From NCBI RefSeq assembly GCF_009569385.1, contig NZ_WBOF01000001.1, positions 4,751,501 to 4,815,500 of the forward strand: DNA of 64,000 bases, given 5' to 3'. This stretch comes from Streptomyces kaniharaensis (GTDB taxonomy: Bacteria > Actinomycetota > Actinomycetes > Streptomycetales > Streptomycetaceae). The notes beneath the pieces are model-generated. The model searched no databases. It had not been told where the DNA came from and was given only the letters and a program-made list of their open reading frames with translations. Within the stretch, counting starts at the first letter, position 1; every line of letters begins with the position of its first letter. Shown piece by piece: positions 14,180-26,363 of this stretch. The translations under genes were made by a program, and so were the position numbers.

Positions 14180-14203
14180 ATGGCAGATCAGGCGATGTTC
14201 GCC
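14180..14203. repeat. Internal copy of IS630 end repeat
   Basis: This stretch (TGGCAGATCAGGCGATGTTC and following) matches the outer end repeats at about 20 of 24 positions and overlaps the last codons of the transposase. It is the expected original end of the element if the passenger gene were absent. Confidence 0.65.
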
Positions 14204-15321
14204 CTATTGACGACCGCGCTGAGGCGTTCGTCGGCAGCGTGCTTGTTTCGCCAGATGATGTAGCGGCGGATCATGCTTCCCTGCTCCTTGTGGCTCTGGT
14301 GGTCGGTGCCGTCGAGGGCGAAGTAGCGCAGGGCGGTGAACTGGGCTTCGATCCGGTTGAGCCAGGAGCTATTGGTCGGGGTGTAGGCGATCTCCACGTT
14401 GTTCGCCGCCGCCCAGGTCCCGACCCGCTGGCACCGCTTCGTCGTCAGGTGCGGTGAGTAGTTGTCGCAGATGATCGCAATGCGAACGTCCGCCGCGTAC
14501 AGCGAGCGCAGGTAGCGGCAGAACTCCAGGAACTTGGACCGGTTCTTGGTCTTCTTGATGTGCCCGTAGAGCTGGTCCTTGGCGAGGTCGTAGGCGGCGA
14601 ACAGGTGCCGGACGCCGTGCGGTCGGGTGTAGGTGGCCCGACGCCGGGGTCTGGGCTCGCGATCGGGGGCCTTGCCCTTGCCACCGCGTTCGGCCCACTG
14701 CCGACCGGGGTGCGGTTGGAGGTTGAGTGGCCCGAACTCGTCCAGACAGAAGACGACTTCGGGCTCACCTTTCTCGGGTATGACCTCGCCGTCGGCGATC
14801 GCGTAGAGGTGCTCGACGCGGGCCTTCTTCGCTTCGTAGTCGGGATCCTTCGAGGTCTTCCAGGTCTTCACGCGTTGAAAGGAGACGCCCTCCTCGCGGA
14901 GCAGGACCCGAAGGCCCTCATGGCTGATGTCGTCGACCACCCCCTCGGCGACCAGGAAGTCGGCCAGCTTGGCCAGGCTCCAGGTCGAAAAGGGCAGGCC
15001 GTGCTCGGCCGGCTTGGACTTGGCGATCTTCTTGATCTCCCGGCGCTCGGGCAGCGTGAAGGTCCTGGGCCGTCCGCCCTTGTATTTCGGGTAGAGCGAG
15101 TCGAAGCCGTCGGCATTGAAGTTGTGGATCACGTCGCGGACCCGGTCCGCGCTGGTGAACGTGACCTCGGCGATCTTCGCCACGGGCATGCGCTGGGCAG
15201 AGAGCAACACCATGTGGGCCCGCCGCCAGGTCACCACCGACCCAGCGCCCCGGCGGACAATCCGCAGCAGCCGTCTGCCCTCGTCGTCATCGATCTCACG
15301 GACCTGCACGCGTTCAGCCAC
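14188..15321 (-). CDS. IS630-family transposase (second type)
   Basis: The 377-residue protein has an N-terminal helix-turn-helix segment (MPVAKIAEVTFTSADRVRDVIHNF) and an IS630 DDE domain with the blocks VVFCLDEFGPLN, IAIICDNYSPHL and SSWLNRIEAQFTALRYF. It is distinct from the IS630 transposase at 10326. GTG 15321 is preferred as start. The frame is open throughout, so it may be functional. Confidence 0.85.
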   Translation of the reverse strand: MAERVQVREIDDDEGRRLLRIVRRGAGSVVTWRRAHMVLLSAQRMPVAKIAEVTFTSADRVRDVIHNFNADGFDSLYPKYKGGRPRTFTLPERREIKKIAKSKPAEHGLPFSTWSLAKLADFLVAEGVVDDISHEGLRVLLREEGVSFQRVKTWKTSKDPDYEAKKARVEHLYAIADGEVIPEKGEPEVVFCLDEFGPLNLQPHPGRQWAERGGKGKAPDREPRPRRRATYTRPHGVRHLFAAYDLAKDQLYGHIKKTKNRSKFLEFCRYLRSLYAADVRIAIICDNYSPHLTTKRCQRVGTWAAANNVEIAYTPTNSSWLNRIEAQFTALRYFALDGTDHQSHKEQGSMIRRYIIWRNKHAADERLSAVVNRANIA

Positions 15322-15404
15322 GTGATCATTCTGACCGTCCGGTGCCGCCCGGCACAGCAACCAGGCGACAGGTCACGACGGGGCGAACGTTGCCTGATGC
15401 GGCA

Positions 15405-15809
15405 CTAGTGGCTGAGGTCGTCGAGCCCGATGCGGCCGAGGTTCGGGATGAGGTCGTTGGTGACGTAGTCGCGGTAGCGGACCAGGGTGGTGGGCTTGAC
15501 GGTGAGGGCCTTGGTCTGGAGCCAGGCGGTGAGGTAGTCGGCGACGGTCTGGTTGGGGTCGGCGCTGAAGCCGCCGTCCTGGCCCTCGAGTACCCGCCGG
15601 AGGGCGGTGCGGGCGGTCTCCTCGGTGGGGAAGCCGCCGCGGCGCAGGGTGTGGCGGTTGCCGTTGGCGGGGAGGTCGACGGCGAAGGTCCAGGTGCCGT
15701 GCTCGGGGTCGGCGGAGAGGCGGGGGCAGTGGGCGCCGAGTTGCTTGTGCTGTGGGTCGCGGCAGCCGCATCGGCGGTAGACGCGGCCGTTGCGGGGTGA
15801 GGAGCGCAT
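15405..15809 (-). pseudogene. Tyrosine integrase, N-terminal remnant cut by IS630-like element
   Basis: The 134 residues equal the N-terminal arm and core-binding part of the integrase family seen at 48816-50118 (shared VYRRCGCRD, GTWTF, DPNQT, ADYLT, VKPTTLVRYRDYVT, DLIPNLG, RLDDL patterns). The frame ends at a TAG created by the insertion junction at 15405-15407, so the catalytic domain is missing. The gene begins 100 bases from the palindromic repeat at 15908, the same arrangement as at 50118/50251. Confidence 0.8.
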
Positions 15810-15929: not shown

Positions 15930-16676
15930 GCTTATCGGCGGGGGAAGGATCTGATTGGTACCCATTGTTGTGCACGTGAGCGTGAGCATTGGGCGGCTGC
16001 GGTTGGTAGCACTACGCGGGTGCAGATCAACGAGGGCCGCACCACGGCCGTACCGAAACCGGATTGGCCGAGGACTTACGCCCTCCGAACTGTTCCACGC
16101 CGGTCGGTCTTACCACGAGCCTGCGCCACCACCTGAAGCGAGAGCCTGGTGTGGCGGTGACCTATCTGTTGGTCGAGATTCGCGAACTACGCTATCGGGC
16201 AGCGCCAATCTGCTAATGCGAACCTGAACCAGGGATGGCCGCGCCTGCGGGCATTCCGCCCTGGCCGCACCCACTGGTCCCGCGTCAGCACCGCCATGTC
16301 TTCGCCTGGCCGCCCGGTCGGCCTGAGGTTGCTAGCCGGGTCACCCGCAGCGTGATGCTGCCAAGCTGGCTGACCTCAGCGCGACATGTCGCTTGAGAGT
16401 GCCCATACTTGAGAAGGAGGGCTAACGAGGAGGACGAAGTGTCGCCCAGCCTGCGGAAGATTCCCTCGGTGCTCACAATCAAACACGTGCCGTCAGGTGC
16501 ATCAGTCCTGGCACTGCGCCGGTTCATCAAAGCTTGAACAAACCTTCAGCCGAACATTTTTTGCGATCTGCTGTTGGTCGGGATTGCCGTTTCGGCTCAG
16601 AGCCACGGGGACTCTTAAGGCATGGCGCATTTTCACAGCATTTCTTCGTTTGATCTCCAGGGCAAGGATTGAACAA
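15930..16676. other. Intergenic leader of the low-GC operon
   Basis: No supported gene lies in these 747 bases. Short open frames on both strands lack family features and codon bias. Composition falls from typical high GC to mixed from about 16380 onward, which marks the left limit of the foreign segment. The promoter of the operon at 16677 must lie here; a TTGAAC at about 16534 is a possible -35, but no convincing -10 was found. Confidence 0.5.
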
Positions 16677-17693
16677 ATGCGCGCTGCAGTAGTCGTTCGC
16701 CCGGGAGGGCCAGAAGTTATAGAACTTCGAGACGTCCCCCAGGGGCCACTCGCCCCTGGTATGGCTAGAGTGCAGATAGAACGAAGTTCTGTAAACGCCG
16801 CAGACTTGTGGACTCGGCATCCAGGAATAGTCTCCTCATATCCCCATATCCCCGGATCCGACGGATGTGGTGTATTGGTAGAACTGAGGGGCGAGAGCAC
16901 CATCGAAACAGGCTCAAAAGTAGTAATTAACCCAGCACTGCAGCTCCCGACTGGTGAGCGCTCATGGTCCGATCCGTATCGGGATATCGTTGACATACTG
17001 GGATACAACTGCGCTGGCACATGTGCAGAATACTGTGATGTTCCGATCGGAAACATATTTCCAGCACCAAGCCATCTAACGATCGAGGAATCAGCAGCGA
17101 TACCGCTCACCTACCTAACCGCTTGGCGCATGCTTGCAAGAAGGGGAATGGTCGAACGTGGAGAGTACGTCCTCATATGGGGTGGATCCGGCGGTCTGGG
17201 AACTGCTGCGATCGTGCTAGCTAATTATCTTGGTGCGAATGTACTCGCGACAGCTGGAAGCGACCATGATGCTGAGCAAGTAGCGGGGCTTAAGCCGAAA
17301 GGAATAATTCGCTATGATCTCGGAGAGGTGGCAAAACAGGTAATCGATCTGATAGGGAGGAAAGTAGATCTCGTGTTCGATTCTGTGGCTGGCCCCACGT
17401 GGTCTGCGACATTGCAGTCGCTGAGGCCGGGGGGACGGGTGGTTCTCGCGGGCACAACAGCTGGCGACGTTGTGACATTTGATCTGAGCGATTTCTTCTA
17501 TAACCAGTGGGCGCTATGCGGCTGCAGGATGGGCGATGAGCGAGACTTCGAGAACATGCTGAAAGCCGTCACCGAAGGGCACCTAAAGCCAGTGGTTGGA
17601 AAGGTGTACCCGCTGTCGCAGATTTCAGAAGCGCATCAAGCAATGGAAGATGGGGGCATCGTTGGAAAGATAGTGGTGAATAATTTCGAATGA
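16677..17693 (+). CDS. MDR-superfamily alcohol/quinone dehydrogenase-like oxidoreductase
   Basis: The 338-residue protein is a medium-chain dehydrogenase/reductase: GroES-like N-terminal half (IPGSDGCGVLVE), YAEY-type block NCAGTCAEYCDVP, the IPLTYLTAWRML helix and a nucleotide site VLIWGGSGGLGTAAIVLANYLGA near residue 165. The structural-zinc cysteine cluster of classical alcohol dehydrogenases is missing, being replaced by a PTGERSWSDPYRD loop. It therefore looks closer to zinc-free reductases. ATG 16677 is preceded by AAGGA with eight bases of spacing. It is the first gene of the low-GC operon and overlaps the next gene by ATGA. The likely role is an NAD(P)H-dependent reduction of an intermediate; the substrate is unknown. 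Confidence 0.8.
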   Translation: MRAAVVVRPGGPEVIELRDVPQGPLAPGMARVQIERSSVNAADLWTRHPGIVSSYPHIPGSDGCGVLVELRGESTIETGSKVVINPALQLPTGERSWSDPYRDIVDILGYNCAGTCAEYCDVPIGNIFPAPSHLTIEESAAIPLTYLTAWRMLARRGMVERGEYVLIWGGSGGLGTAAIVLANYLGANVLATAGSDHDAEQVAGLKPKGIIRYDLGEVAKQVIDLIGRKVDLVFDSVAGPTWSATLQSLRPGGRVVLAGTTAGDVVTFDLSDFFYNQWALCGCRMGDERDFENMLKAVTEGHLKPVVGKVYPLSQISEAHQAMEDGGIVGKIVVNNFE

Positions 17694-18280
17694 GCATACA
17701 TGCGCGCCCGTTCAACCATCAGTTGGATCCCGTAGCCGCTCGAGATAACCTCGAGAGGCTCCCAATAGGCTTGTGCGATGAATTCGCACACATTGAACTC
17801 GTATGCCTGGACGTCGATGGAATATTGACAGATGGTTCAATAATATACAGCGAGAGCGGGCGAGCGCTAGTAACATTCAATGCGCGGGATGGTTTGGGAA
17901 TTGCACTCTTGCAGAGGGCTGGCGTATCAGTTGCTTTTGTGTCTGCTCTAGATTCCCCGATAGTTAGAAAACGCGCCGAAGAACTGCACATCAAAAGTGT
18001 CTGCTTGGGTGTCAACGATAAGCTCAGGTGCGTCAGAGATATGCAGCGGCATACGAGAGGAAAGATACTATTTATGGGGGATGACCTTTGGGATCTGGCA
18101 GCGATGAGAGCTTGTGACGTCGCAGCGTCTTCCTGCGACGCGGCAGTAGAGGCTCTCGCTGCTGCCGACGTGATTTCTTCCTATGGAGGCGGCCGAGGGG
18201 CTGTTCGACAGATAGCCGATATGACTCTCGAGGCCCAAGATATAGATCGCGGCTCTCTAATGGCGCGATATGATGAATGA
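17690..18280 (+). CDS. KdsC-like HAD phosphatase
   Basis: The 196-residue protein carries the KdsC-type HAD signature. DVDGILTDG (nucleophile Asp41 and Asp43) is followed by the family's NARDGLGI block, a VSALDSPIVRKRAEEL segment, DK at 110-111 and GDDLWD (130-135, metal-binding Asp pair), then GGGRGAVRQIADM near the end. KdsC enzymes remove the phosphate from KDO-8-phosphate or related sugar acids and usually form tetramers. Actinobacteria lack KDO lipopolysaccharide, so here another phosphorylated sugar-like intermediate is probable. About 35 extra N-terminal residues precede the HAD core. Start and stop codons overlap those of its neighbours, showing translational coupling. Confidence 0.85.
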   Translation: MSIHARPFNHQLDPVAARDNLERLPIGLCDEFAHIELVCLDVDGILTDGSIIYSESGRALVTFNARDGLGIALLQRAGVSVAFVSALDSPIVRKRAEELHIKSVCLGVNDKLRCVRDMQRHTRGKILFMGDDLWDLAAMRACDVAASSCDAAVEALAAADVISSYGGGRGAVRQIADMTLEAQDIDRGSLMARYDE

Positions 18281-18908
18281 CGCCATGGATTCTGGAAACA
18301 CTCGTCGTGTTTATGATCTGGCAGCGCGGGATTACGAGGAGATCTTCTTTGACGACCTCAGTGATGCGCACTGGCTTGATTCGTTCTCCAGTTCTCTTGA
18401 AGCACCGTCCTTGATCCTAGATGTGGGATGTGGTCCTGGAAACTTCTCTAACTATCTTGGTAGTAGAGGACATTGTCCTGTTGGCATCGACATCTCATTC
18501 GAAATGCTATCCGTAGGACGACAGCGCAGAGGTGTTCATCATCCAATGGTTCAGGGGACCATGGAGCGACTTCCCTTCAGGTCAGGCATATTTGATGGCC
18601 TATTGATTGCCTACTCGCTGCTGCACATACCCAAGAAGAATGTCCAGTCGGTTCTGCAGGAACTCAGGAGGGTTATCAAGGCCAACGGGAGGAGTCTTCT
18701 CCTTCTGAAAGAAGGGGATGACGAGAGAGTGATAGCTGCGAGTCTCGTTGCGGGTGAATTCCTGGTCGCGTCGATGTGGCGAGTGCCGGAGCTCCAGCCT
18801 CTTCTCGAACTCGCAGGGTGGAATCTTATCTCTGCAGAACATGGTGAGCCTGCTAGGCAGGAAGAGATCCAGGAACCGAAGTTGGCTCTTACCCTGATAG
18901 CAGCGTGA
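18270..18908 (+). CDS. Class I SAM-dependent methyltransferase
   Basis: The 212-residue protein has motif I SLILDVGCGPGNFSNYL (about residues 48-64), the acidic PVGIDIS strand end (motif II) and FDGLLIAYSLLHI (post II/motif III), so it is a small class I methyltransferase of the Methyltransf_11/25 kind. No membrane segment is seen. Start may be either of the tandem ATGs at 18270 and 18273, both inside the end of the phosphatase gene. The acceptor atom (O, N or C) cannot be deduced. It is a tailoring candidate in the operon. Confidence 0.85.
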   Translation: MMNDAMDSGNTRRVYDLAARDYEEIFFDDLSDAHWLDSFSSSLEAPSLILDVGCGPGNFSNYLGSRGHCPVGIDISFEMLSVGRQRRGVHHPMVQGTMERLPFRSGIFDGLLIAYSLLHIPKKNVQSVLQELRRVIKANGRSLLLLKEGDDERVIAASLVAGEFLVASMWRVPELQPLLELAGWNLISAEHGEPARQEEIQEPKLALTLIAA

Positions 18909-18957
18909 ATGGGGCTTGGCGTAACCGGGATCTGGCGCCTGTGAGGTTTTAGCCAAA

Positions 18958-20013
18958 ATGACTGTAGCTCTTCGTACTGTGCGTGGTCTCCACTATCACC
19001 TGGACGGCTGTCCAACTGGCACACAGGTCCCTGCCCAAATAAGGGGCATAGTGGTAAAGAAATGGAGTAAGGGCGACTCCACTGGACGCTGGGTACTGGA
19101 ACTCACCGGCCGCGCGAATGTTATTGTCAACCGTCGTGATCCAGCGGTTGATATATCTCAGATGCAGGTAGGACGGCGAGTTGAGGTGACAGGGTCGGCT
19201 GTGATCTCGTCCCGTCAACAGTTGGTACTTTATCCGGACAGTATGGAGGTCTTGCCGGCAGGCTCGCTAGGGCAGCACTGGCCTGAAAAACCAGAGGTGC
19301 CAAGCCATATCTTGACAAGCTTCCTCTTAGCACGTCTCCGCAGTATCGCAACAGCATCAGCAACCAAGCTCGGCTACCGCGAGTTCGAACCGTATTACAT
19401 ATCGACCCCGCTGCAGAATAGGGACTCAGGGCCAGTGAGTGTTTCATTCGAAGGCTGGGGATCCTCACTGAGTCTGGCAATCTCGCCCGCGCCACAGCTC
19501 CTTCAAACTCTCCTTGAGACCGGAGAGCATCGGGTATTCGCAGTCGGCAGGTGTTTCTCATCGGCATATCGCGATGGTTTTTCCAGTGCAGAGGAACTGA
19601 CCCTAGTGGCAAGACAAATTGATACCTCAATTGAAGAGGTGATCTGTTTTTCTGAGACGATACTCCGGGACCTGCTTCAGGAGGGGGACACGGCGGTGTC
19701 GCGTGTCACATGGGGCGCAGATCAGTGGCCTCAAGTACCAGTTGCTGCAATGCCAAGCAAGGAGATTGACACGCCGCGCATTGAGTGGCTGCCTGAGGCC
19801 AGAGAAGACGATGGTATACATCACGCTATATTCCGTATAATTTATCCCCAAGGTATTGTTGTCGCAGAGGGCGATGTCACTGAGTGGTCATCACACGTCC
19901 GGATAGGCGGTGTCACAGTTCACCTGGAACGTCTCGTAGCACTACTGTCCCCGACGCGACTGGCGGCTATCAGAGACCTCGGCGCCCCCACGGAACGGTT
20001 GCGAAGAGCATGA
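18958..20013 (+). CDS. Degenerate Asp/Asn-tRNA synthetase-like protein
   Basis: The 351-residue protein follows the class IIb synthetase plan. An N-terminal OB-fold part covers about residues 5-100. Motif 1 is RSIATASATKLGYREFEPYYISTP (128-151), and ISPAPQLLQTLLETGEHRVFAVGRCF corresponds to the SPQLYKQ/motif 2 region. Motif 3 is GGVTVHLERLVAL (318-330, Arg325). In motif 2 the usual FRAE is replaced by FSSAYRD, so the ATP-contacting Arg-Glu pair is altered, and the protein is shorter than real AspRS/AsnRS (about 430-590). It is therefore probably not a housekeeping synthetase but a paralogue that activates or transfers an amino acid, or binds tRNA. Leu124 is a TTA codon. It ends with an ATGA overlap into the DIT1/PvcA gene. 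Confidence 0.75.
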   Translation: MTVALRTVRGLHYHLDGCPTGTQVPAQIRGIVVKKWSKGDSTGRWVLELTGRANVIVNRRDPAVDISQMQVGRRVEVTGSAVISSRQQLVLYPDSMEVLPAGSLGQHWPEKPEVPSHILTSFLLARLRSIATASATKLGYREFEPYYISTPLQNRDSGPVSVSFEGWGSSLSLAISPAPQLLQTLLETGEHRVFAVGRCFSSAYRDGFSSAEELTLVARQIDTSIEEVICFSETILRDLLQEGDTAVSRVTWGADQWPQVPVAAMPSKEIDTPRIEWLPEAREDDGIHHAIFRIIYPQGIVVAEGDVTEWSSHVRIGGVTVHLERLVALLSPTRLAAIRDLGAPTERLRRA

Positions 20014-21389
20014 CTGGGCACTTGACGAAATTGACAAGGTCTGGGAATACAGTCCTGGAGGAGAATTTTTCTGGTTTGGCTAAAGGAACGCGCCTTCGGC
20101 CTACGCGCTCAGACTCCTACGACTTCGCGAGTTGCATGTTTTTCTCGCACCTTGGATACGAGAACGAGCAGATCAGCCCTGGAGAGCGCCGCCTCAGGCC
20201 GATTTCCGAATCCGAGGTAAGAAAAGAACTATTGTCGGCCGTGAGGTCGCATGAGGGCGACACTGGATTGAGTGCAAATCCACCTCGCCCGCGGACCATG
20301 AAACACGTTAACGTGCCTGAGAGTGTGACTGCAGACTATTTGGGCTGGGCTGAGACGGCGCTTGTCGATTATGGTCCTTTGGAAGATATAGCGAAGAGCG
20401 ATCTTGACAGGACAGAAAAGATCCTGAGCGTGCTAGCTGACCCGCTCTTAGGGAACACACAGAATCGGGAGAACGTCGATTCAGTTGTGATTCACCAGCG
20501 GCTCGCTATGGCGTCGGATGGGCGCTTGCCACTGTACCTGGCCCTGCCGGCCTTCCCGTTCAAGGATCAGGGGGCATTCAATACCGACTGTAGCGCGGAC
20601 CAGCCAGACTTTGGAGAGGTGGCGCTATTAGTGAGAATGCATTGCCTGGCTCTCGCTTTGTCGCGCCTGTACGCTGAGGAGGTCCAGTGGATAATTCTCT
20701 CGGATGGGCCACTATATGCCCCCTTCTTTGGTTTGGATTCTGGCGTTGCCCAACGATATCTGCAGCGAATTCGATCCTTCCGAGACAACCTTAACCTTGG
20801 CTCTACTATCAATGTGCTATCTCTTCTGGATCTGGTGGCGAAGACTCAATATTTGTACGGGGGAAAGTCTGGCGTGGAGGCATTCGCCAAGTACTCTGCC
20901 GACATTCGCCATGCGCTTGAGTCTGTAAGCAGAAAAGATAGAGAGGTTGATGACGCGCTCCAAGTACTAGCAGGGGACATGATGTGGAACTTGGACACGC
21001 GAAGGTACGAGCAATCAATGACGCATCAAGAACTCTGGAGAATCATAAGGAGAAAGGGGCGCTCGCCGCTCCGTACCGAAGTATCTGAACAATCTCGAGA
21101 AACGACACTGCGGTACGTGTCATGCAACATTGCCCTCCGGTTGGCCCGTGTGATTGAATGTCAGTTCCCGCTTGCTATCCGGGCTACGTCCCATGCTAAG
21201 AGGGGGCAGGTGGCCATTCCCAGAATTGGCCATGTGGCGCCGTGGAATGGAGTGGCTGTGCGGCGTCGTCGGGGGCGGGGATGGGCGGACCTTGGAAGTG
21301 TGAGAATTCACCGCGCTTGGCAGCAGGGGGCAGATGTTAGCGTTCACCTGGAAGGCTGTGGAGATGCCTTCTATTACGAAGTTCCATAG
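20010..21389 (+). CDS. DIT1/PvcA-family (isocyanide synthase-like) protein
   Basis: The 459-residue protein matches the DIT1/PvcA family: LPLYLALPAFPFKDQ (Lys185), PDFGEVALL (199-207), the IILSDGPLYAPFFG strand (229-241) and the C-terminal HVAPWNGVAVR block. Family members such as PvcA and IsnA convert an amino acid amine to an isocyanide with ribulose 5-phosphate; Dit1 makes a formyl-tyrosine precursor. Deviations include PWNG where many members have PWH, and about 90 extra N-terminal residues. ATG 20010 overlaps the previous stop (ATGA). Codons 147 and 207 are TTA, so translation would need the bldA tRNA in a streptomycete. No 2-oxoglutarate oxygenase (PvcB partner) is present, so the product probably differs from known isonitriles. 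Confidence 0.8.
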   Translation: MTGHLTKLTRSGNTVLEENFSGLAKGTRLRPTRSDSYDFASCMFFSHLGYENEQISPGERRLRPISESEVRKELLSAVRSHEGDTGLSANPPRPRTMKHVNVPESVTADYLGWAETALVDYGPLEDIAKSDLDRTEKILSVLADPLLGNTQNRENVDSVVIHQRLAMASDGRLPLYLALPAFPFKDQGAFNTDCSADQPDFGEVALLVRMHCLALALSRLYAEEVQWIILSDGPLYAPFFGLDSGVAQRYLQRIRSFRDNLNLGSTINVLSLLDLVAKTQYLYGGKSGVEAFAKYSADIRHALESVSRKDREVDDALQVLAGDMMWNLDTRRYEQSMTHQELWRIIRRKGRSPLRTEVSEQSRETTLRYVSCNIALRLARVIECQFPLAIRATSHAKRGQVAIPRIGHVAPWNGVAVRRRRGRGWADLGSVRIHRAWQQGADVSVHLEGCGDAFYYEVP

Positions 21390-21460
21390 ATTCTTATGGT
21401 GGCCGCCGTCTTCTCGCCTGGGATCACTGTGTGCTGGGCGTGTGTCGCCTCAAGCGGTGG

Positions 21461-21631
21461 AAGTTCGAGCAGTTCGGGCTCGCTGTTGGGCACCCGCCGC
21501 GACAGCACCTTCGCCCCGTCGGCGTCGATCACCGTGCGGTGATGTTCGGTCTTGCCCGCGTCCGTCCCGCCCAAAGCTCGGGCACCCGTGCCTCCCTCGT
21601 CGATTCGTTGCTGTTCCCTGCAGACGACCAC
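21461..21631 (-). pseudogene. IS110-family transposase, N-terminal fragment
   Basis: About 57 residues (QQRIDEGGTG, TDAGKTEHHRTVIDADG, VLSRRVPNSEPELLEL) match the start of IS110-type DEDD transposases, including the first Asp of the catalytic set. The frame becomes unrelated before 21461. It marks the right border of the low-GC segment. Confidence 0.75.
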
Positions 21632-21885
21632 GCCGACGTGTCCTTACGAAGCGATCTTGATCGCGCGTCCCAATGAGTGGCCGTGTCGTCGCGGGGCGCC
21701 GGGCGACCACTCCGCACTGAGCGCGCTGCTGCGCCTGGATGGAGACCAGGACTGGGCCTGGCTGCACGCCCGCGCCTGCACAGCCTCTGGCCTCAACGCG
21801 GTCCGTCGGCTCCTGCAGGGCCGCTGGGTCGGGTGAGCCCGGACTCCGGTAGCTGCCTGTCGCTGGCGGCTGGGACGATCACGCG
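21632..21885. other. Intergenic debris
   Basis: A plus-strand frame ending at 21836 (SALLRLDGDQDWAWLHARACTAS) has coding-like composition but no start or recognised family. It may be the tail of a truncated gene. Nothing else is supported. Confidence 0.35.
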
Positions 21886-22317
21886 ATGGGAAACATCTAT
21901 GACTACTACGCGGCCACCGACGACACACAGGCCCTGGGCGTTTTCGAGGACGGCCGCATCGACGACCCCTTCGGTACGGTCGGTCTCAAGGGGGTTGACC
22001 CCTACCTGCTCCTCGGAGCCGTCGAGGCACACCTGACGGGAGTGCCCGAAGAGCAGGTGGAAGCCGACCCGCGCTTCTGCGAACTGCTGAGCGATCCTCA
22101 GCACGAGGGCCACTGGCTGGTCTCGCTCACGGACAGCCTTCGCGACGCGCTCGCGGTGGCCACCAGCGGGCGGTTGCAGGAGGCGGCGTTCGTTTGGACG
22201 CTCGCCGAGGACGGCGCGGGACAGGACGCGGAGCTGGTGGCCGACTTCCTGCGGCGGCTGGCCGAGCTCGCCCGCGACGCCGGGCAACGCGGCCTGTACT
22301 GCGGCATGTCCCTGTAG
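21886..22317 (+). CDS. Hypothetical protein
   Basis: The 143-residue acidic protein starts at MGNIYDYYAATDDTQALGVF. It shows no signal peptide or membrane segment and its second half is helical. Codon bias is strongly actinobacterial. No family is recognised with confidence. It begins 49 bases after a short fragment frame and is followed by a HEAT-repeat gene on the same strand. Confidence 0.6.
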   Translation: MGNIYDYYAATDDTQALGVFEDGRIDDPFGTVGLKGVDPYLLLGAVEAHLTGVPEEQVEADPRFCELLSDPQHEGHWLVSLTDSLRDALAVATSGRLQEAAFVWTLAEDGAGQDAELVADFLRRLAELARDAGQRGLYCGMSL

Positions 22318-22399
22318 GCGGGTCGCAATCGGACGCCCTTGTCGCAGCCGCAACGGCCGACAACGGAGGGATCGAACTCCATCCACGGAGGACGACCGT

Positions 22400-23593
22400 T
22401 TGTCAGCCCCGCCCGCAACACTGCCACTCATGAACACTTCTGGCGAGCCGCCCGCCGGCATCGAATCGGCCCCGCACCCCAAGACCGTCCTGCTCGACAC
22501 GCCATGGGCGGAGCTGAGCCACGCGTACGGGTCGGCCGAGGACACACCCACCCTGCTGGCCGGCCTGCTGGACGACGCCCCCGAGGTCCAGGCCCATGCC
22601 CTGGGTCAACTGCAGATGTCGGTCCTCCACCAGGGCTCGCTCTACAGCAGTACCGCGCCGGTCGCGCTTTTCGTGGCCGGCATTCTGGGCGATCCGCGCA
22701 CCTTGGCCGCGCACGCGAGCGAGTACGCGTGGGACGACCGGGTCCGCCCCCTGCGGGCCGCACTGCTGGAGTGGCTGGGCGAGATCGCCGAGTCGGTCGG
22801 TTACTACGACGACCGCGAGCAGGATCCCGAGTACGAGGCCCCAGCCGACATCGCGGCCTGCCGCGCCGCCCGCCCCGCGATCCATCAGGCGGTGACTCCC
22901 TACCTGGCTGATCCCGACCCCGTCGTTCGCGAAGCCACCGTCGGCGCCGTCGGCCACCTTCTCAAGGCACCCGAGCTCCGCGACCGGATACCCGACGCCG
23001 CCCAACGGTTGCGTACCACCCTGACCACAAGCAAAGACCGGCGCGAGCGCGCCGCGGCAGTTCTGACCCTCGTCGCCCGGGCGCAGGACACCAGCGACCT
23101 GCTCACCGACCCGGATCCGGCGATCCGCGCCTGCGCCGCCCTCGCCCCGCTCCCCGCCGACGACCCGCGCCCCACTGCCATCCTTCTGGAGGCACTGTCG
23201 GACCCGCATGCCGTGGACCACTGGTTCGACGCCGAACCCCTGCCCCAACTCGACGGCTGGTTCCGCTTCACCCTCCTCCAAGCCCTGCTCGCCCGCACCA
23301 CCACCCTGGAGGAAATCCTCGACGCCGCCCTGGCACTGATGCCCATGGCCAACGACTTCACCGTCGAACGCGACTGGGGACCGCTCCTGCTGCGCGCCTT
23401 CCCCGACGGCAACGTCAGCGAGGCCGCCCTCACCGACGCTCAGCGCCAACTCCTCAGCGCCATTGCGGCCAAGGACGACTGCTGGGGCAACATCGGCAAC
23501 AAGATCACATGGCTTCGCAGAGCTGGCCTACCGACGGACCGCGCCTCTTTCGGGGTCCTCCTGGCAAACCCCGGCCAGGCCGCCGATGTCTGA
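22400..23593 (+). CDS. HEAT-repeat protein
   Basis: The 397-residue protein is made of helical repeats, most clearly AVTPYLADPDPVVREATVGAVGHLL, RERAAAVLTLVAR and LLTDPDPAIRACAALA, the HEAT/PBS-type pattern used for protein binding. TTG 22400 has a good GGAGG nine bases before it. The first ATG (22430) has none, so the TTG start is preferred. No enzymatic motif is visible. Partner unknown. Confidence 0.7.
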   Translation: MSAPPATLPLMNTSGEPPAGIESAPHPKTVLLDTPWAELSHAYGSAEDTPTLLAGLLDDAPEVQAHALGQLQMSVLHQGSLYSSTAPVALFVAGILGDPRTLAAHASEYAWDDRVRPLRAALLEWLGEIAESVGYYDDREQDPEYEAPADIAACRAARPAIHQAVTPYLADPDPVVREATVGAVGHLLKAPELRDRIPDAAQRLRTTLTTSKDRRERAAAVLTLVARAQDTSDLLTDPDPAIRACAALAPLPADDPRPTAILLEALSDPHAVDHWFDAEPLPQLDGWFRFTLLQALLARTTTLEEILDAALALMPMANDFTVERDWGPLLLRAFPDGNVSEAALTDAQRQLLSAIAAKDDCWGNIGNKITWLRRAGLPTDRASFGVLLANPGQAADV

Positions 23594-23821
23594 CGAAGCG
23601 TGAAGAGCTCAGACCGTAACGGCCCTGCTGGTCGTCGGAGGCGGGGGCCTGAGTTCCGGTACCCGCCACAAGGCGGGCAGGCGGCGGCGCCCATGTCATC
23701 TGCGGATCGGATCAGCGTGATCGCCACGGTCTTCACCTGACATCCTCCGCCGCTGGCATCGATCCCAACTAGGCTGGCGGAGGGGTTGCAGGTGTGCGGC
23801 ATGCGGCAGTGCCTCGGGCGC

Positions 23822-24424
23822 TCATCCGATGCCCGGAGCGACTGGGTGCTCAGCTTGGAACGCCAGCCTGCGTTCGGCATCCTGGGCGATTTGGTCGAGA
23901 ACATCATCGAGTGCCACGAACGCCTCCCACGGTCGCTGGTGGCTGGCTTCGGAGAGGCGCTCGATCAGTAGTTGTTCGAGATCAGTGACGCGCTTGCCCT
24001 TCCAGACCTTGTCGGCCAGGCTCACCAGCAGGTCATCGGTGCTGACGCCGGGGGCGTTCCACGATGCGTGGCTGCGGGCGAAGCGGGCGAGCTCCTCGGT
24101 GACTCCCCGGGCGATCAGCAGGTCGTGGCCGGCCACCTCGTGTGCGGAGCCGGGCCAGGAAAGCTCCTCGGGGTGCAGGACCTTCCCGATGTCGTGGGTG
24201 GCGGCGCCGAAGAGGACGGCGTGCCGGTTGAAGTCCAGCTGGGGGTAGTGCTGTTCGGCCCAGTCGACCAGTTGGTGGGCGACGTCGTGGACGGCCCGGA
24301 GATGGGCCGCGAGCCTCGGTGGGGCCTGCAACTCTTCGAGGAGGACGGCGACCTGGGGCGGGAGGGGTCGCAGTACGGGGTCGCCGGGCAGGGTGAGGGC
24401 TCGCTGCAGTGCATTGGGGGTCAT
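23822..24424 (-). CDS. HD-domain protein
   Basis: The 200-residue protein contains an HD phosphohydrolase core: His of AVHDVAHQLVDWA, the HD pair in FGAATHDIGKVLHPEEL, HEVAGHDLL and the Asp of LLVSLADKVWKG. HD proteins are metal-dependent phosphohydrolases on nucleotides or phosphoesters, and the substrate here is unknown. ATG 24424 (MTPNALQRAL) is used as start. It is divergent from the DUF4240 gene with a 52-base gap. Confidence 0.75.
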   Translation of the reverse strand: MTPNALQRALTLPGDPVLRPLPPQVAVLLEELQAPPRLAAHLRAVHDVAHQLVDWAEQHYPQLDFNRHAVLFGAATHDIGKVLHPEELSWPGSAHEVAGHDLLIARGVTEELARFARSHASWNAPGVSTDDLLVSLADKVWKGKRVTDLEQLLIERLSEASHQRPWEAFVALDDVLDQIAQDAERRLAFQAEHPVAPGIG

Positions 24425-24476
24425 TCGGGACACGGTAGGCCTCAAATGTCGGAACCTGCTGCAAGGGTGGATGGTT

Positions 24477-25055
24477 ATGGACATCGACGGGTTCTGGAAT
24501 GTGGTCGGGGCAGCACGGGCCGAAAGCAGCGGTCCGCATGGTAAGGCGTTCGCCGAGGCAATGGTCGACCAGCTGGCGGGGCTCCCGCAGGAGGAGATCC
24601 TCGGCTATCAGGAGCGATTCGACGAGGTGCACGGCGCCGTGTACCGCTGGGACGTGTGGGCTGCCGCCTATCTCATCGGCGGAGGCTGCTCGGACGACAG
24701 CTTCATGGATTTCCGGGCCGGCCTGATCGCCCTCGGGCGGGACTGGTACGAGCTGGCAGCCGCCCGCCCGGACGATCTGGCGGACCACCCCGCAGTGATC
24801 GAGGCCGCGACCCGGGGTGACGACTACGTGATCTTCGATGAGGGCGTGAACTACGCGGCCAGCTACGCGTTCGAGCGCCTCACGGGTGACGCCGATGCCT
24901 TCCACGAGGCGTGGAAGCGCCATCGGGCCGGGCAGGACCTGGATGCGGAGCTGGAGTCCGACATGGGTGAGGACTTCGATTTCGATGACGCTGAAGAGAT
25001 GCACCGTCGCCTTCCCCGTCTTGCTGCCCTTTACCTCGGCGCAGCCGCCGGCTGA
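24477..25055 (+). CDS. DUF4240-domain protein
   Basis: The 192-residue protein is a full-length DUF4240 member: MDIDGFWNVV start, LPQEEILGYQERFDEVHG, then YRWDVWAAAYLIGGGCSDD and FMDFRAGLIALGR, which are the diagnostic blocks. The C-terminus is acidic. The family is widespread in actinobacteria and of unknown function. ATG 24471 two codons upstream is an alternative start. Confidence 0.8.
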   Translation: MDIDGFWNVVGAARAESSGPHGKAFAEAMVDQLAGLPQEEILGYQERFDEVHGAVYRWDVWAAAYLIGGGCSDDSFMDFRAGLIALGRDWYELAAARPDDLADHPAVIEAATRGDDYVIFDEGVNYAASYAFERLTGDADAFHEAWKRHRAGQDLDAELESDMGEDFDFDDAEEMHRRLPRLAALYLGAAAG

Positions 25056-25186
25056 GACGTGTCAGCGCCTTGAAGAGCGTCGCTATTCGGATGGGGCTGC
25101 TGTCCCGACTGGTTGCCGATGTCCCTTGTGTGGCGGCTTGGCGGCGACCGTGCGGGTTGTCACTGGGGTCCGCTTGGATGGTGGGC

Positions 25187-25846
25187 ATGACCGTCAACGA
25201 TGTCGCCCGTTCTCTGCCGGATCCCAACGTTCTGCGGGACCACTGCCGGGCTTTGGCGATGCTGGATGCGATCCTCAGTCCCGATTGGTCCTCGCGCTAC
25301 TACTCCTATGACGCGCGGTGGTCGCCGACGGAAGAGATGGCGTCGATGCGCAACGGTTCGGGGGATGAGTACTCGATCGTCTTCGCTTCGGCCGGTGTGT
25401 ACGTTCGGGGCTTCGACCACGAGTCGCCGATGAGCCCCTATGCCGAGGACGGAGTGCGGCCCGGCGTGGTGGACTCCGTTCCCGAAGAGTTCCGGTCCTG
25501 CGTCGAGGAACCCGCGTTCAACGACGACGGCGTACCGACGGTGACGGCCTGCCTGTGGCATAGGACGACTGATGAAAGTTGGCAGACGGGCGAGATCGAC
25601 TTCCCAGAGGGCCATGTCGACCCTGACGGGGCCGACTGGTTGTTCCGGCTCCTCGCCGACCGATCTCCGGAGGCGTACGCGAGCTTCGCCGTCGACTACT
25701 ACGAGGTACCAGTCGACCTGGATACCGTCCGGCACATCTGTGCTCTGAGGCCGCTCACCGATGACGTGGTCCGCGCCCTCAACGCCGACCTGACCCTCGA
25801 GAACCTTGCCGAGGACATCGCCGAGATCGGCTACCCCACGACGTAG
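25187..25846 (+). CDS. Conserved hypothetical protein
   Basis: The 219-residue protein (MTVNDVARSLPDPNVLRDHC, then MRNGSGDEYSIVF, YVRGFDHESPMSPY) has the look of a conserved streptomycete cytosolic protein of unknown function. Acidic residues are frequent and there is no membrane segment. ATG 25178 (MVGMTV) could also be the start. It is the last gene before the tRNA-derived repeat. Confidence 0.65.
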   Translation: MTVNDVARSLPDPNVLRDHCRALAMLDAILSPDWSSRYYSYDARWSPTEEMASMRNGSGDEYSIVFASAGVYVRGFDHESPMSPYAEDGVRPGVVDSVPEEFRSCVEEPAFNDDGVPTVTACLWHRTTDESWQTGEIDFPEGHVDPDGADWLFRLLADRSPEAYASFAVDYYEVPVDLDTVRHICALRPLTDDVVRALNADLTLENLAEDIAEIGYPTT

Positions 25847-26269
25847 GGAAAATTACCGAATGAGTAATCCGCCGCGAAGGCGGTGCGCGCCGAGATCTCT
25901 GCCGTCCCGCGCGACTGAGAGGACAGTTACGGGATGCGCGTCATGGTCCACGGCTTCCGATATCTCAGCGTTGCTGCTCCGTCAGCCACCTTGCCGGCAG
26001 TAATGCGCGTGGTTTTTCCGCGCCGAACTATTAGTGGGTGATGCGTTGCCCTGCTGCCGCGAAAGCGTGGTGATCATAGCGGTGAGTGAGTTCTAGATGT
26101 AACTGTGAGGCAAGTCACTCTCGAAGCCCCGGTCGTCAGGTGCCTCTCACGCACCTCTCACGGACTGGGCGTCATGAGGTGTCATCGGGCGTCATGCGTG
26201 GTGGACGGAGTAGGGCCCTGACCTGCAGGTTCTGGACTGAATGGACAGACCGTTACGACCTTTCGACCG
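25847..26269. other. Non-coding region left of the tRNA-Pro repeat
   Basis: No gene is supported. Between about 26140 and 26205 short direct repeats cluster (CTCTCACG twice; GGGCGTCATG twice with GTGTCAT between). They could be arm-type sites for the nearby integrase. Confidence 0.45.
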
Positions 26270-26312
26270 CTGGGGGTCAAGGGGTCGCAGGTTCAAATCC
26301 TGTCGTCCCGAC
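26270..26312 (+). repeat. Attachment-site-like repeat: 3' half of tRNA-Pro(GGG)
   Basis: These 43 bases contain the anticodon loop CTGGGGG followed by TCAAG, a variable loop, the T arm GCAGGTTCAAATCCTGT and the acceptor strand ending CCCGAC, i.e. the 3' half of a proline tRNA with anticodon GGG. The identical 43 bases recur at 47280-47322. The 5' half (D arm, acceptor 5' strand) is missing at both places, so neither is a working tRNA. Both behave like integration-site copies. Confidence 0.85.
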
Positions 26313-26330
26313 TGTAAAGTCGCAGGTCAG

Positions 26331-26361
26331 AGGCGGTTTGCTCGTAAAGAGCAGGCCGCCT
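26331..26361 (+). terminator. Terminator hairpin after tRNA-Pro fragment
   Basis: AGGCGGTTTGCTC pairs (two G-U wobbles) with GAGCAGGCCGCCT across a five-base loop and is followed by TTT. It probably was the terminator of the original tRNA gene. Confidence 0.65.
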
Positions 26362-26363
26362 TT

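Follow-up and report, generated by a model that had tools for sequence, protein, structure and literature searches.

A Low-GC Operon Joining a Divergent DIT1/PvcA-Family Protein With a Synthetase-Derived Protein in Streptomyces kaniharaensis

A five-gene operon was analyzed in a 64,000-nt stretch (G000:C1:4751501-4815500; hereafter, the window) of the 8.77-Mb genome of Streptomyces kaniharaensis. Its genes, numbered 1 to 5 in the direction of transcription, encode a reductase of the medium-chain dehydrogenase/reductase (MDR) superfamily, a KdsC-type phosphatase, a methyltransferase, a protein related to aminoacyl-tRNA synthetases and a divergent member of the DIT1/PvcA family, PF05141 (Table 1). 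The initial annotation, made from the DNA letters and their translations, had placed the operon at 16677-21389 of the window, and its coordinates and junctions were reproduced exactly: five intact open reading frames (ORFs), all on the plus strand, confirmed the operon as real. Neighboring genes overlap by 4, 11, and 4 nt at three of the junctions, and the remaining one is a gap of 49 nt. Measured from stop to stop, the plus-strand frames span 501, 426, 362, 215, and 198 aa. This is far beyond what 300 shuffles of the same operon DNA yielded, in which the longest frame reached 248 aa and at most one exceeded 190 aa. The low GC content noticed earlier was also found. Over most of a segment that holds exactly the five genes, it amounts to 0.48-0.59 (about 53%) vs. 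about 0.69 outside, and the composition is uniform across the five genes. Scans for consensus promoters and terminators gave results at or below chance.

Table 1. Position and assignment of the operon genes and of the surrounding features in the window.
Feature	Position	Strand	Evidence
Low-GC segment with exactly the five genes inside	16450..21395		Sliding GC
Gene 1, MDR-superfamily NAD(P)-dependent reductase/dehydrogenase, 338 aa	16677..17693	+	PF00107 78 bits, PF08240 45 bits
Gene 2, KdsC-type haloacid dehalogenase (HAD) phosphatase, 196 aa	17690..18280	+	TIGR01670 115.9 bits (cut-off 106.95)
Gene 3, class I S-adenosylmethionine-dependent methyltransferase, 212 aa	18270..18908	+	PF08241/PF13649 68 bits, motif DVGCGPG
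Gene 4, class IIb aminoacyl-tRNA-synthetase-like protein, 351 aa	18958..20013	+	hhalign; PDB profile matches
Gene 5, divergent-subfamily DIT1/PvcA protein, 459 aa	20010..21389	+	PF05141 59.8 bits (gathering 26.4)
DDE_3 transposase (IS630-like), beside the truncated integrase	14188..15360	-	PF13358/PF13565
Truncated tyrosine-integrase gene, N-terminal SAM-like domain	15405..15809	-	PF14659; 92.7% DNA identity to G065 integrase (L081, blastn)
IS110-type transposase, N-terminal fragment, directly at the operon 3' edge	21374..21631	-	PF01548 30.9 bits
Element backbone, colinear, 86-89% identical in two related genomes (G065, G020)	21834..26363		blastn to L081, L082
Exact copy of the tRNA-Pro 3' end, attachment repeat	26282..26312	+	Sequence match

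The families initially named for genes 1, 2, 3, and 5 all held (Table 1). The nearest solved structure to gene 1 is 2eih, matched over the full length (E 3e-56). Gene 2 matched the KdsC structure of H. influenzae, 1j8d (E 2e-29). It resembles the KdsC and KDN-9-P phosphatases in its TIGR01670 subfamily membership and in its intact HAD motifs (DVDGILTDG, GDDLWD, and GGRGAVR), but it scored under the equivalog cut-offs of both (108.5 bits vs. a cut-off of 208 for the KDO-8-phosphate phosphatase model NF007019), and genes for KDO (3-deoxy-D-manno-octulosonate) or sialic acid are absent from the operon. KdsC-type domains were also seen in 136 of 249 family genomes, in frames of about 340-1390 aa; from the window's own genus, S. 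kaniharaensis is the only genome listed. These matches in relatives lie in longer reading frames, and no operon relatives were found in their 3.5-kb loci.

Gene 4 alone matched no Pfam or NCBIfam model. In a comparison with a profile built from 31 AspRS, LysRS, and AsnRS sequences, its segments corresponding to the oligonucleotide-binding (OB) fold, motif 2, and motif 3 were collinear, and its hhalign score with these class IIb synthetases was 50.8, compared to a maximum of 24.3 among 269 controls (200 shuffles and 69 natural ORFs). Its HMMER score exceeded those of all 2000 shuffles and 128 natural ORFs. A homologue of gene 4 was found on an unrelated DNA fragment, the metagenomic viral contig L098 (see below); PF01336 was detected in this homologue, and the two proteins jointly matched class IIb synthetases with P 1e-12. 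The initial annotation had called gene 4 a degenerate Asp/Asn-tRNA-synthetase-like protein. The degenerate class II relationship stood. The Asp/Asn label was replaced by class IIb, as a profile made of AsnRS only could not tell gene 4 from shuffles. The solved structures nearest to the gene 4 profile are LysRS and not Asp/AsnRS, and LysRS scored highest in both PDB and NCBIfam, for the gene 4 profile and the L098 homologue alike. As judged by these profile comparisons, gene 4 is by origin a relative of the class IIb synthetases, with LysRS nearest, and is made up of an OB fold and a shortened relative of the catalytic domain. Another member of the phylum (L047) carries a 389-aa AsnRS-like paralogue, apparently without the OB fold.

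The synthetase-like protein had initially been proposed to activate an amino acid. The alignments do not support this, because the motif 2 arginine is replaced: FRxE reads FSSA in gene 4 and FSTS in the L098 homologue, so that Arg and Glu have given way to Ser/Ala-type residues in both members. In the motif 3 region (HLERLV and HTEHLL, respectively), Arg is present in one member only. Both proteins instead have a new conserved motif in common, CFSxxYRDxxSSxE, at the FRxE site of the synthetases. That gene 4 has retained amino-acid activation, or forms an amide, and passes the product to the DIT1-like enzyme seems quite unlikely to us, given these exchanges and the shortened catalytic domain. 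The class IIb similarity, the retained OB fold, and the adjoining methyltransferase gene would fit such a role, and synthetase-like enzymes are known from natural product pathways (PMC12945691). The closest analogy, drawn from description and not from sequence, is SlgZ from the streptolydigin pathway, which is reported to resemble asparaginyl-tRNA synthetase and to act together with a methyltransferase (PMC5357945); the presence of synthetase-like proteins in such clusters is therefore not new. Like the operon, this natural product cluster of an actinomycete comprises a synthetase-like protein (SlgZ) and a methyltransferase (SlgM), whereas a PF05141 protein is not mentioned there.

Gene 5 carries an N-terminal extension of about 140 residues. 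Its homologue on L098 scored 57.7 bits with PF05141, and both proteins show the stretches PAFPFKDQ and HAKxGQVAxPxIG..PWNGVA. In a tree of PF05141 proteins, gene 5 joined the L098 protein (support 99/97) and was placed outside the canonical synthases, which lie on one side of a branch supported by 98/98. With nine canonical members as reference, 25 of 77 canonical conserved positions were kept in gene 5, including K185, D200, E203, D232, Y250, R391, H395, and W412; the active-site signature is changed.

PF05141 enzymes catalyze an unusual step, the transfer of a sugar phosphate-derived one-carbon unit to an amine, and their described products are mostly isonitriles. For gene 5, isonitrile formation is doubtful, because the protein falls outside the canonical clade and keeps so few of the canonical positions. 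A true type I isonitrile pathway, in which gene 5 would use ribulose 5-phosphate and an unusual amino acid to form an isonitrile that the remaining genes tailor, is in our judgment unlikely. The score above the PF05141 gathering threshold, the eight retained residues named above, and the solved homologues that gene 5 matched (the isonitrile synthases 9dh4 and 9dhm, and PvcA, 3e59) argue for it. However, gene 5 reached 15.4 bits with the L-tyrosine isonitrile synthase model NF045653, the cut-off of which is 600, and it differs from the type I enzymes (PvcA/IsnA) by an identity of about 20%, by the N-terminal extension, by the loss of K191 and R404, and by Asn in place of H413, an exchange found in the L098 homologue as well. 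As noted initially, a PvcB-type iron/2-oxoglutarate-dependent oxygenase is absent from the five genes, so that the usual partner enzyme is missing from the operon. The family also extends beyond isocyanides: yeast Dit1, an N-formyl-tyrosine former, belongs to PF05141 and is reportedly not an isocyanide synthase (PMC7345447), so that membership in PF05141 does not imply isocyanide formation. Dit1 is likened to gene 5 by description and not by sequence; it is fungal and stands in another genetic context.

The sole plasmid match of gene 5 in tblastn was a Microvirga protein (25% identity, E 6e-6). This protein and one from Agrobacterium are non-canonical, as is gene 5, but they are encoded beside a TRAP transporter, SIS, and ROK kinase genes and have S in place of H395. 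In the tree, such rhizobial proteins formed a separate clade (100/100). Their genes lie in sugar operons with these three neighbors (L004:7641-10871 on the Microvirga plasmid, there also with zwf, pgl, and edd; L006:11989-13104 on the Agrobacterium plasmid), and this branch may serve the catabolism of sugars or Amadori compounds. Further PF05141 genes were noticed. A Klebsiella variicola plasmid (L011:5617-11076) holds two adjoining, divergent PF05141-like genes, after which come genes for a methyltransferase, DJ-1/PfpI, and an MFS transporter, and similar matches occur on K. pneumoniae plasmids. S. kaniharaensis itself has a second, canonical PF05141 gene (G000:C1:5077505-5078242, 252 bits). 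A very divergent PF05141 protein of genome G981 (L094:9281-10558) has the stretch AVRATIHTK in common with gene 5; a TetR gene lies alongside, and no operon relatives were found at that locus.

Neither the 70 genus, 395 family, 396 phylum, and 331 class genomes nor the plasmids and phages searched contained the five genes together. No relatives of gene 4 were detected in the genus and family genomes, and no relatives of gene 5 accompanied by the set in the phylum and class genomes or in plasmids. When 84,980 species genomes were scanned for patterns made from gene 4 or from a two-row alignment of gene 5, an approach insensitive to distant relatives, there were no matches, and searches of plasmids and phages with the window and L098 proteins returned only distant PF05141 proteins or generic synthetases. 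Among 2.9 million viral contigs, a scan with an alignment of gene 5 and the Microvirga protein, L098 not being part of the query, revealed one true relative, the L098 protein (31% identity over residues 11-416, E 5e-42). The relative of gene 4 (374 aa, phmmer E 5.9e-22) is encoded in the same 11-kb locus on the opposite strand, within 5 kb of the relative of gene 5. Repeated scans of the viral contigs with two-row alignments found L098 again and nothing besides. As in the window, the pair lies in a low-GC island (46-53%, in a contig of roughly 62% GC) beside a transposase, of which a fragment is left; the other genes there encode an EgtE/SufS-like class V pyridoxal phosphate (PLP)-dependent enzyme, a glutamine amidotransferase (GATase), and a Stf0 sulfotransferase.

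Since L098 carries the pair without genes 1-3, the recurring unit is the pair of genes 4 and 5 and not the five-gene set. The initial annotation had made its proposal depend on the co-occurrence of the five genes in other genomes, and this was borne out for the pair and not for the set. The subfamily-specific residues are common to both examples despite an overall identity of only 27-31% between the window and L098 proteins. From this conservation, the pair is a maintained subfamily variant and not a product of decay. In the literature, we found neither a described cluster with this gene set, in agreement with the initial annotation, nor a synthetase-like protein paired with a PF05141 protein.

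The operon is surrounded by parts of mobile elements (Table 1). An intact relative of the truncated integrase adjoins a tRNA-Pro attachment (att) site in the related genome G065. Exact 31-bp copies of the tRNA-Pro 3' end were located at G000:C1:4678243, 4749163, 4777782, and 4798792, the first of which holds an intact tRNA-Pro gene. The second and the third copy, 28.6 kb apart, enclose the operon; the second is the next repeat to the left, 2.3 kb outside the window. Attachment repeats on both sides, together with the integrase fragment at 15405-15809, are the features looked for in cargo of an integrative element. The homology of the backbone to G065 and G020 breaks off at 21834, and the region of the IS110 fragment shows matches resembling insertion sequences (IS) in many relatives. 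The corresponding slot of G065, flanked by integrase and backbone, holds a defense-like cassette of a HamB/PDC-M23B-like DEAD-box helicase and a 297-aa partner ORF (L081:12018-16438). As the arrangement of integrase, cargo, and backbone matches that of G065, the operon appears to be exchangeable cargo of a tRNA-Pro integrative element.

This setting bears on two other explanations, both of which we regard as very unlikely. The operon might be a remnant in decay, or insertion sequences might have brought unrelated genes together by chance, as IS630, IS110, and integrase fragments flank it and no other occurrence of the five genes together turned up. However, the five ORFs are intact and coupled, their composition is uniform, genes 2 and 3 keep their catalytic motifs, and the core pair recurs with conserved residues. 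Alternatively, it could be a defense or conflict cassette that makes an anti-phage or toxic small molecule. The helicase found in the corresponding slot of G065 and the occurrence of the pair in a viral contig would agree with this, but genes 1, 2, 4, and 5 have no PADLOC family match, the match of the methyltransferase is generic, and position alone is weak evidence.

We tentatively favor the explanation that the locus is a horizontally acquired operon for the biosynthesis of a small molecule, carried as cargo of a tRNA-Pro element, with the PF05141 enzyme and the synthetase-derived protein as its core. Because the unusual pair is found also in one unrelated DNA fragment, the operon is probably a real, uncharacterized small-molecule pathway. 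Several points weigh against this explanation. Only two examples of the pair were found, and no relatives of genes 1-3 were present in L098, so that the three accessory genes do not recur. None of the five genes encodes a transporter, a regulator, or a resistance protein, and the canonical residues K191, D238, R404, and H413 are lost in gene 5. As the single-sequence AlphaFold models reached a pLDDT of only 35 for gene 4 and 34 for gene 5, the active sites of both were read from alignments only.

We infer the substrates, the order of steps, and the product of the favored pathway as follows. The gene 4 protein would bind or present an amine substrate without adenylating it, either a free amino acid or, by means of its retained OB fold, an aminoacyl-tRNA. 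In the condensation ascribed to the gene 5 enzyme, the carbonyl group of a ketose phosphate (ribulose 5-phosphate, for example) would react with this amine, which is probably an amino acid. The KdsC-type phosphatase might then take off the phosphate, and the MDR enzyme and the methyltransferase could reduce and cap the product, respectively. An intermediate derived from a phosphosugar is favored because of the KdsC-type phosphatase and because PF05141 genes occur in sugar-phosphate operons elsewhere, which fits ketose-phosphate chemistry.

A wider reading appears conceivable, although we are rather doubtful of it: in what would be a new biosynthetic logic, a DIT1/PvcA-type enzyme may depend obligately on a non-activating protein of synthetase descent, which might hand it an amino acid or an aminoacyl-tRNA so that a C-N bond can form with a ketose phosphate. 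Clusters of this kind would be mobile and low in GC, and their tailoring genes could be exchanged. If true, a maintained PF05141 clade of its own, with a partner of synthetase origin, would point to a new branch of this chemistry and a new class of small molecules.

Two other loci of the window lie near attachment repeats. Just past the copy at 26282, a phage integrase gene adjoins a gene with a Fic domain (window:26832-29305). Near a second integrase and a further att copy, a 1495-aa AAA helicase with an MTES_1575 nuclease domain, defense-like in character, is encoded (window:39798-44285).

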